From Candidatus Nitrosotalea okcheonensis (GTDB lineage Archaea > Thermoproteota > Nitrososphaeria > Nitrososphaerales > Nitrosopumilaceae): a DNA stretch of 64,000 bases. The stretch spans positions 79,073-143,072 of the forward strand of contig NZ_LT841358.1 of assembly GCF_900177045.1 (NCBI RefSeq), given 5' to 3'. This document shows, in pieces, positions 34,984 through 37,281 of the stretch. Both the position numbers and the translations under genes were made by a program. The first letter of the stretch is position 1. Each line of letters begins with the position of its first letter. The notes under the pieces are model-generated. The model was given only the letters and a program-made list of their open reading frames with translations, made no database searches and was not told the DNA's origin.

Positions 34984-35235
34984 GTGAAGCAAAATGCCAT
35001 CAAGTTGGGCGACGAAAAATGCGCAGTTTGTGGGGGCCAAGGAAAAATTGCTCTTCTTGACACACAGTGTTCTTTTTGTAATGGAACAGGGGAATATTCC
35101 AAGACTGCTGATAGCTATATGAAATCACATATTTGCCAATGCATATTTCTTGACAGGATTACATGTCCTCTATGTGGAAAGAGATGTCATCATGATACTC
35201 CAAACAAACCCAAAGTCTTGATTAGTCCTGTTTAG
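34984..35235 (+). CDS. DnaJ-type zinc-finger protein
   Basis: The protein has 83 aa from GTG 34984. It has CAVCGGQGK and CSFCNGTGE, two CXXCXGXG repeats as in the cysteine-rich domain of DnaJ, then CQC and CPLCGKRC. It may thus hold two zinc ions. No J domain is present. It is convergent with the next gene (4-bp overlap) and divergent from ubiD. Function is unknown; protein-fold or disulfide-related binding is a guess from the motif only. Confidence 0.72.
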   Translation: MKQNAIKLGDEKCAVCGGQGKIALLDTQCSFCNGTGEYSKTADSYMKSHICQCIFLDRITCPLCGKRCHHDTPNKPKVLISPV

Positions 35236-35609
35236 AAAATTGGCGGAAGCTCATTTTTCTTGTCATGTCCGCCAGAACCAAATCTGCAATAAAAACACTG
35301 GTCTGACTGCATGTACTTGAGTTGTTCAATCTTGATTGCACCTATTTTGAGTGCAATCTTTGTTAAAATTCTGTACTTTACAGGCATGGACGGAATTACC
35401 TCCTTAAGGTATACGTTATAGTGATCTGGGCAAAATTTTAGCGTTATATTGCTTGGCTCCTTTGCAGTCTGGCTTACAGTCTTTGCAACCCCTATCTGCT
35501 CTCTGATATATTCGTGCTTTGGGCATGGGCAATTTCTTCCTCCAGGATGCTTGTACGCAGGCGTATTTTTCCAGTCAAAGCCAGGATATTCCTTTTCAAA
35601 ATCGTCCAA
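35232..35609 (-). CDS. Conserved cysteine-containing protein of unknown function
   Basis: The protein has 125 aa from TTG 35609. It contains the pairs CPCPKHEY, FCPDHYN and QCFYCRFG, probably one or two metal sites, and a middle helical stretch (YRILTKIALKIGAIKIEQL). The acidic, aromatic N terminus (FEKEYPGFDWKN) has no signal sequence. I do not recognise the family. It overlaps the DnaJ-finger gene by 4 bp tail to tail. Confidence 0.65.
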   Translation of the reverse strand: MDDFEKEYPGFDWKNTPAYKHPGGRNCPCPKHEYIREQIGVAKTVSQTAKEPSNITLKFCPDHYNVYLKEVIPSMPVKYRILTKIALKIGAIKIEQLKYMQSDQCFYCRFGSGGHDKKNELPPIF

Positions 35610-35710
35610 TGCCTAAAAGACGTGCCTGCTTCTTATAAAACTTCTATGAAATTGGCCTATTCTGTGCTTGATCAAAATGTAAATAAACTGCCATATCTCA
35701 CAACTACTAC

Positions 35711-36826
35711 ATGTCTAAAGAATCTACGCCAAAAAAAACACGTTCTATTAAAAAAGTTACAGAGGGATCTAACACAGCCGAACTAGAGGCAAAGATAGCA
35801 CAGCTTGAAGCCAAGCTTGCTAATTTATCATCACAGGTCAAGTCTGCAGAACAAAAACCTGCGCAGACTTCATCAAAAACACAACAAAGACCGGCAGCAA
35901 CAGGTCCAACTCACGGTACACTTCCAGCAGGAATGAAACCAGCAGAAGCTCCAAAACCCGAACCAAAACCACAACAAAGACCGGCAGCAACAGGTCCAAC
36001 TCACGGTACACTTCCAGCAGGAATGAAACCAGCAGAAGCTCCAAAACCACAATCTGCACCAGAAACAACATCTAGCGTGCATGAACCATCTGCAGGAGAA
36101 GTAGCACCTGCATATGCAAAGATAAGCTCAACAGGTTATACTGGTAACAAGTATTTTGCAACAAGAAAGAGATTATCATATCACCCATCAGACAAGCAGT
36201 TTACCGGCAGTGTCTCAACAACTAGCACTGTAACTACAACTGCTCCACCACCGCCGGCTCCTGAGTCAAAACATGAATCACAGACAAGCACCTCACGTGG
36301 TACACTTCCAGCAGGAACCAAGCCCCAAGAGAAAAAGTCTTTGTGGAAAGCAAAGGGTTCTGATGTAGCAGAGACATATGTTGCAGAAGAAGAACCAAAA
36401 CCACAACAAAGACCGGCAGCAACAGGTCCAACTCACGGTACACTTCCAGCAGGAATGAAACCAGCAGAAGCTCCAAAACCCGAACCAAAACCACAACAAA
36501 GACCGGCAGCAACAGGTCCAACTCACGGTACACTTCCAGCAGGAATGAAACCAGCAGAAGCTCCAAAACCACAATCTGCACCAGAAACAACATCTAGCGT
36601 GCATGAACCATCTGCAGGAGAAGTAGCACCTGCATATGCAAAGATAAGCTCAACAGGTTATACTGGTAACAAGTATTTTGCAACAAGAAAGAGATTATCA
36701 TATCACCCATCAGACAAGCAGTTTACCGGCAGTGTCTCAACAACTAGCACTGCACCACCAGCTGCAGAACCTGCAAAACCAAAATCTACATTCCGCACAA
36801 CACTTCCAGCAGGATTTAAAGCCTAA
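35711..36826 (+). CDS. Pro/Ala/Thr-rich repeat protein with TLPAG motifs
   Basis: The protein has 371 aa. After a basic start and a coiled-coil (residues ~20-45, ELEAKIAQLEAKLANLSSQ), it consists of disordered repeats. The peptide TLPAGxK occurs six times (four GTLPAGMKPAE, one GTLPAGTKPQE, and the C-terminal TTLPAGFKA). A ~55-residue block with GYTGNKYFATRKRLSYHPSDKQ occurs twice. There is no signal peptide or membrane span. DNA 35881-36230 and 36403-36752 appear identical. The short repeated motif suggests multivalent binding to a partner, perhaps for filament or clustering. Function is unknown. Confidence 0.85.
   Translation: MSKESTPKKTRSIKKVTEGSNTAELEAKIAQLEAKLANLSSQVKSAEQKPAQTSSKTQQRPAATGPTHGTLPAGMKPAEAPKPEPKPQQRPAATGPTHGTLPAGMKPAEAPKPQSAPETTSSVHEPSAGEVAPAYAKISSTGYTGNKYFATRKRLSYHPSDKQFTGSVSTTSTVTTTAPPPPAPESKHESQTSTSRGTLPAGTKPQEKKSLWKAKGSDVAETYVAEEEPKPQQRPAATGPTHGTLPAGMKPAEAPKPEPKPQQRPAATGPTHGTLPAGMKPAEAPKPQSAPETTSSVHEPSAGEVAPAYAKISSTGYTGNKYFATRKRLSYHPSDKQFTGSVSTTSTAPPAAEPAKPKSTFRTTLPAGFKA
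35881..36752 (+). repeat. 350-bp direct duplication with nested 90-bp repeats
   Basis: Positions 35881-36230 and 36403-36752 (offset 522 bp) read identically by eye. Each copy begins with two 90-bp units (35881 and 35971; 36403 and 36493), both starting acaacaaagaccggcagcaa. The repeats lie wholly inside the repeat-protein gene and keep the frame. Absence of silent changes suggests recent duplication or ongoing gene conversion. Confidence 0.9.
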
Positions 36827-37281
36827 TTCTTAAAGGCATCTAGCACTTCTTGTGCATGTCCTGCAGGTTTTACTTTTTCAAAAACTTTTAGGATCTTGCC
36901 TTTTTCATCTACAAGAAAAGTTGTTCTGTTTACTCCCATGTATTCACGACCCATGAATTGCTTCTTGCCCCATACGCCAAACTTTTTTGCTACATCTTTT
37001 TCTGTATCTGCAAGTAAAATAAAAGGAACATTCATTTTCTCACCAAACTTTTTGTGAGACTCTTCATCATCTGGACTGATTCCGATTATCTCAATCCCAG
37101 ATGTCTTGAATTTTTTGTAATCTTGAGAAAATTCAGCAGCCTCTGTTGTGCATCCTGGCGTGAAATCTTTTGGATAAAAATAGACAACGTATTTTTTGCC
37201 CTTGAGATCTGACTTTTTCACTGTCTTGCCTTCTGCATCCTTTAGTGCAAAATCTGGAACTTGATCTCCTTCTGATAACAT
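36823..37281 (-). CDS. bcp: Peroxiredoxin, Bcp/PrxQ family
   Basis: This 152-aa thiol peroxidase reduces peroxides with thioredoxin. The peroxidatic Cys is C44 in FTPGCTTEA. The resolving Cys usually found five residues later is absent (AAEFS), so it should act as a 1-Cys enzyme or use another thiol. The start LSEGDQVPDFALKD and the GVWGKKQFMGREYMGVNRTTF segment are typical. It overlaps the repeat protein tail to tail by 4 bp. Confidence 0.94.
   Translation of the reverse strand: MLSEGDQVPDFALKDAEGKTVKKSDLKGKKYVVYFYPKDFTPGCTTEAAEFSQDYKKFKTSGIEIIGISPDDEESHKKFGEKMNVPFILLADTEKDVAKKFGVWGKKQFMGREYMGVNRTTFLVDEKGKILKVFEKVKPAGHAQEVLDAFKN

Follow-up and report, generated by a model that had tools for sequence, protein, structure and literature searches.

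The window analysed here is a 64-kb stretch of the genome of Candidatus Nitrosotalea okcheonensis, which belongs to the same genus as Candidatus Nitrosotalea devanaterra (LN890280). It contains a gene for a 371-aa protein of a family that we refer to as TLPxG, flanked by a divergent gene for a Cys/His-rich protein and a convergent peroxiredoxin gene (Table 1). Self-comparison revealed a maximal exact direct repeat in the TLPxG gene, with two 351-bp copies at an offset of 522 bp and zero differences between them, confirming the identical duplication of 350 bp described in an initial annotation of this DNA. It is the only exact repeat of at least 30 bp in the window, and is far above chance. Each copy contains one pair of near-identical 90-bp tandem units. 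The six TLPAGxK motifs of the initial annotation were also recovered, with TLPAG at aa 70, 100, 198, 244, 274 and 364, all of which fit TLPAG[MTF]K. Scanning the 1.97-Mb single-contig genome with a TLPAG-x-K DNA pattern gave five matches, all within the 371-aa gene and none elsewhere, and a reversed control gave zero. The pattern being confined to this gene genome-wide, we rejected the idea that TLPAG serves generally as a tag for sorting or docking.

Table 1 Features of the TLPxG locus, in window coordinates.
Feature	Coordinates	Strand	Basis
Divergent neighbour: 125-aa Cys/His-rich protein, syntenic marker	35232..35609	-	16/17 loci compared
Promoter-like element TGATCAAAAT(G/C)TAAATAAAC	35669..35688	+	22 nt before ATG; identical in 13 aligned upstream regions except one G/C position
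TLPxG-family gene, two-module form, 371 aa, ATG start	35711..36826	+	ORF; homologues in 22/22 sampled genera
Basic N-terminal tail, aa 1-19	35711..35767	+	Sequence
Coiled-coil helix, aa 20-45	35768..35845	+	AlphaFold pLDDT about 90; heptad residues (nearly) invariant in family
90-bp tandem pair inside copy 1	35874..36048	+	Repeat analysis
Exact repeat copy 1, 351 bp	35880..36230	+	Sequence comparison in window
Five TLPAG motifs	starts 35918, 36008, 36302, 36440, 36530	+	Motif scan
Conserved module 1, GEVAPAYAKISSTGYTGNKYFATRKRLSYHPSDKQFTG, aa 129-166	36095..36208	+	Family conservation
Unique linker between repeats, with TLPAGTK and EKKSLWKAKG	36231..36401	+	Not homogenised; common to other two-module species
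90-bp tandem pair inside copy 2	36392..36570	+	Repeat analysis
Exact repeat copy 2, 351 bp	36402..36752	+	Sequence comparison in window
Conserved module 2, equal to module 1, aa 303-340	36617..36730	+	Sequence comparison
C-terminal TLPAG motif	36800..36814	+	Motif scan
Convergent neighbour: AhpC/TSA-type peroxiredoxin, syntenic marker	36823..37281	-	Pfam PF00578; 17/17 loci compared

The stop of the peroxiredoxin gene overlaps that of the TLPxG gene by 4 bp, and an aquaporin gene lies beyond it on the same side of the locus. This arrangement, with the Cys-rich protein on one side and the peroxiredoxin followed by the aquaporin on the other, was found in 16–17 of the 17 loci compared. From its sequence, the upstream element is probably a BRE/TATA box with a putative promoter role. 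The 125-aa neighbour carries CPCPKH, CPDH and CFYC motifs and is highly conserved in family f1, occurring also in genomes of family f12. Pfam and NCBIfam searches with this protein gave no match above threshold, and our guess is that it binds metal. A functional pairing with the TLPxG protein was rejected because f12 genomes devoid of the TLPxG family also encode the Cys-rich protein, and the link between the two is thus probably positional. In the f12 genomes (L118-L121), its divergent neighbour is a different coiled-coil protein of about 314–333 aa; a coiled-coil gene is found at the same spot in f12 and in the TLPxG-bearing family, and the two look unrelated in sequence. The stretch at 34984-35235 (+) encodes a small, roughly 83-aa protein bearing a DnaJ-like CxxCxGxG half-motif and conserved in the same place in 10 loci.

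The 371-aa protein is rich in Pro (14%) and basic (pI 9.8, net charge +20), and is devoid of Cys. AlphaFold predicted the N-terminal coiled-coil helix with high confidence and nearly all of the remainder with pLDDT below 50, from shallow alignments of 11 rows. A single-module homologue (9 rows) gave a similar picture at lower confidence, with the N-terminal helix only, and a weak hairpin at aa 330–339 in the first run was absent from that of the homologue. With alignments this shallow, the low pLDDT is an indication rather than proof that the tail beyond the helix is disordered; the prediction agrees with the initial annotation, which described a coiled-coil head on a disordered, Pro-rich protein. 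The polyproline-like stretches described at the same time amount to one PPPP (aa 179–182), besides which there is one PP; this PPPP hints weakly that the protein could be a client of aIF5A. A hydropathy scan revealed no signal peptide-like or membrane-spanning stretch, the maximum 19-residue hydropathy being 0.22, compared with 2.31 for the neighbouring aquaporin. Whatever matches the searches of Pfam, NCBIfam and the PDB returned were below threshold or very short, and mostly reflected coiled-coil noise; membership of a known family in these databases was rejected on this basis.

Homologues were detected in 31 of 37 genomes of the genus and in 191 of 219 genomes of the family Nitrosopumilaceae, covering all 22 sampled genera, at one syntenic locus. 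A class-wide search of 330 genomes gave a single match outside the family (E = 2e-4), and none that was convincing. G016, a high-completeness genome of the genus, has no TLPxG gene; as the Cys-rich neighbour is absent too, the assembly may not include this locus. We found no earlier report on the family in the literature searched, for which the N. maritimus locus tags used were position estimates and possibly wrong.

Across the family, the conserved core reads GYT..N.YFATR.R..HP..K.F, and the coiled-coil heptads are also conserved. Nitrosotalea genomes carry one TLPxG gene with either a single module, as in the 200-aa protein of N. devanaterra, or a pair of modules joined by a linker that has a WKAKG motif. 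Most of the Nitrosopumilus-type genomes examined carry two adjacent genes, a short one (mostly 205–250 aa) and a long one (mostly 285–331 aa). Between 1 and 10 LP[KA]G motifs were counted per full-length protein, and nearly all have one at the C-terminus or close to it; G[TS]LPKGF forms the C-terminal end in 50 of 50 paired genes, while L076 and L080 lack the terminal motif. One family member (L081:2677-3507 (+)) has an H1-like basic N-terminal tail, KRPAKAKRPAKAKRP. Repeat number, which the initial annotation suggested may vary between strains, does vary between species: the first module of the sister genome G028 has one 90-bp unit compared with two in the window species, and single-module genes exist. 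Two-module and one-module genes are interleaved on a module-number tree built from two short neighbour proteins, which has several weak nodes. This interleaving suggests repeated loss, collapse in draft assemblies, or both; the single-contig genome of N. devanaterra is a one-module case, as far as the assembly can be trusted.

Comparison of the window species with G028 revealed 11 sites at which the two copies within each species match each other but differ from the pair in the other species, a 3-bp indel likewise common to both copies within a species, and zero sites that group by position. The inter-module stretch has the same length in both species and contains the same linker. Of the eight two-module genomes (seven of Nitrosotalea, one of genus g18), six have only 0–1 synonymous differences between modules 1 and 2, compared with a median of 0.60 between species; in G006 and G011 the modules have diverged. 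The initial annotation had offered two explanations for the identical copies. Zero differences over 351 bp would be expected if the duplication were very recent in the strain or species, and too young to have diverged. However, the layout with the same linker is also found in the sister species, across Nitrosotalea and in a neighbouring genus, and the species-specific substitutions and indel are present in both copies, which makes a very recent origin scarcely credible. The other explanation, conversion, is clearly favoured.

An assembly artefact, in which the assembler had duplicated or smoothed a single copy, was an earlier concern. Identical repeats exceeding short-read length are hard to assemble, and draft contigs do end inside the TLPxG gene more often than expected. 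Against this, the linker is unique and the reading frame intact, the two-module layout recurs in several independent assemblies with species-specific differences, and identical adjacent paralogues are present in single-contig genomes; we regard an artefact as very improbable. Among 36 Nitrosotalea genomes, the gene contains 15 low-coordinate contig ends against an expectation of 3.3 (P = 2e-6), and in genomes of ≤100 contigs the figures are 9 and 0.87, expectations being calculated from rounded contig numbers. Drafts with contigs ending inside the gene include G003, G012, G013, G033 and G035. At this locus, the identical repeats interrupt short-read assemblies and may cause them to collapse. 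Metagenome-assembled genomes are therefore likely to contain the gene in fragments or to give a wrong count of it, and in many of them it is probably fragmented or collapsed.

The adjacent short and long paralogues gave a second view of the same pattern. In 22 of 24 genomes, the two genes have 200–610 bp in common without a single mismatch. These blocks, with a median of 500 bp over the 24 genomes, mostly start where the coil ends or further downstream, and in about half of the genomes extend to the common GTLPKG. Over a 75-codon core scored in 20 genomes, 16 have no synonymous difference between paralogues, compared with a median of 49% of synonymous sites between orthologues of different species. 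Genome-grouping sites numbered 9149 over the 190 genome pairs, and orthologue-grouping sites 27; 189 pairs have only the former, and the pair L067 and L117 (genus g17) accounts for all 27 of the latter. The adjacent paralogues of these two genomes have diverged, with 17–21 synonymous core differences, as if conversion in g17 had stopped before the two split. The N-terminus with the coil behaves differently from the core: its nearest relative is the orthologue of another species in 46 of 48 cases, whereas that of the core is the paralogue in its own genome in 38 of 42, the counts across genomes being not all independent since related genomes share history.

The core is under purifying selection (dN/dS about 0.22), and one could propose that selection on the protein and codon use would alone keep the copies alike in the absence of conversion. 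The conservation of the core protein would agree with this, but about half of the synonymous sites at which the copies in a genome are identical differ between species, and indels are common to both copies, leaving this proposal a negligible chance. The identity covers synonymous sites and indels and lies in sharp-ended blocks, a pattern that is best explained by gene conversion, to which unequal crossing-over could add. Within-genome copies are closer to each other than to their orthologues in at least five species, and synteny and unconverted flanks place the duplication before the species, the two features by which long-lasting recurrent concerted evolution has been recognised (PMC6053082). 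That the duplication is older than the species follows from the same neighbours, the grouping of N-termini by orthologue, and the common linker. This is long-lasting concerted evolution rather than recent duplication or assembly error. The two modules arose before the genus diversified, and would have been repeatedly overwritten by each other through gene conversion, becoming identical within a genome and different between species; in Nitrosopumilus-type genomes, the same overwriting would take place between the adjacent short and long paralogous genes. We place very high confidence in the anatomy, distribution, synteny and DNA-level homogenisation of the family as described above.

The overall explanation that we favour, a conversion-homogenised family with a cytoplasmic scaffold function, has in our estimate a probability of roughly 0.55. 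For the protein itself, we tentatively propose from its sequence a multivalent cytoplasmic scaffold oligomerised by the coiled coil. The coil would oligomerise the chains, the repeated motifs and modules would offer many identical binding sites to one putative partner, and conversion would keep these sites equal while the coils of paralogues stay distinct. In support of this are the confidently predicted helix followed by a low-confidence tail, the conserved heptads, the lack of a signal peptide or membrane stretch, the LP[KA]G motif, which recurs along the chain and stands at the C-terminus in nearly all full-length members, and the purifying selection on the core (dN/dS about 0.22). The coil is largely left out of conversion and the core is covered by it, a pattern that would fit paralogues that are kept unmixed yet bind the same thing. 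Against it, the diverged copies in G006, G011 and genus g17 show that uniformity is not always needed, and the existence of single-module forms shows that multivalence is not essential everywhere. A more specific version, in which a family-wide scaffold organises a condensate, an enzyme assembly or a filament, and the short and long coils form distinct oligomers whose conversion-equalised cores let two assemblies share one client, appears unlikely.

The main rival to the scaffold is a nucleic-acid-binding protein of the nucleoid or of RNA, in which the basic tail and the Arg/Tyr-rich module would bind DNA or RNA and the coil would bridge strands. The pI of 9.8 and net charge of +20, the PKKTRSIKK tail, and the H1-like KAKRPAKAKRP tail of the homologue L081 are all consistent with this, but some members are nearly neutral (the long paralogue of L065 has a net charge of +2 and pI of 8.3), and the Pfam and NCBIfam searches gave no nucleic-acid-binding domain. 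We consider nucleic-acid binding possible, at rather low odds. Pro-rich, Thr/Ser-rich linkers such as those of this protein resemble those of some surface proteins, and would suit a secreted or surface-associated Pro-rich protein; a maximum hydropathy of 0.22 against 2.31 for the aquaporin, with no signal peptide-like or membrane-spanning stretch, makes this quite improbable.

Returning to the putative scaffold, its closest parallels would be EPYC1 and CsoS2, which are multivalent disordered scaffold proteins. Like these, the TLPxG protein has repeated short motifs, apparently disordered linkers as spacers and no recognisable enzymatic domain; unlike theirs, its binding partner is hypothetical, and no sequence relation to them was found in Pfam, NCBIfam or PDB chains. 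We know of no Rubisco link in Nitrosopumilaceae. Few archaea in oceans and soils are as abundant as these ammonia oxidisers, yet a protein that nearly all of them carry has no match among Pfam or NCBIfam families or solved structures.

Long-lasting recurrent concerted evolution in prokaryotes has been surveyed for tuf, amoCAB, an archaeal histone and other genes; the seven archaeal genes listed are all euryarchaeal, and the TLPxG family is not among them (PMC6053082). As in the cases of that survey, TLPxG paralogues are closer within a genome than to their orthologues in many species, and synteny shows that the duplication is older. The TLPxG family thus seems to add an example of long-lasting concerted evolution from outside Euryarchaeota to those of the survey. 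Concerted evolution and domain-limited conversion were already known; what would be new, judged from the literature searched, is their occurrence in a non-euryarchaeal, apparently largely disordered protein and on two scales: among the modules of a single gene in Nitrosotalea and, elsewhere, among adjacent genes. In methanogens, mtrA-1 and mtrA-2 undergo concerted evolution with conversion limited to the shared domain (PMC4632066). Both systems consist of ancient archaeal duplicates in a conserved context, with a shared domain homogenised and the other part copy-specific. Whereas mtrA encodes a known enzyme subunit of Euryarchaeota, the TLPxG protein is an uncharacterised, mostly disordered protein by prediction, from Nitrosopumilaceae, and its homogenisation takes place within one gene as well as between neighbours.
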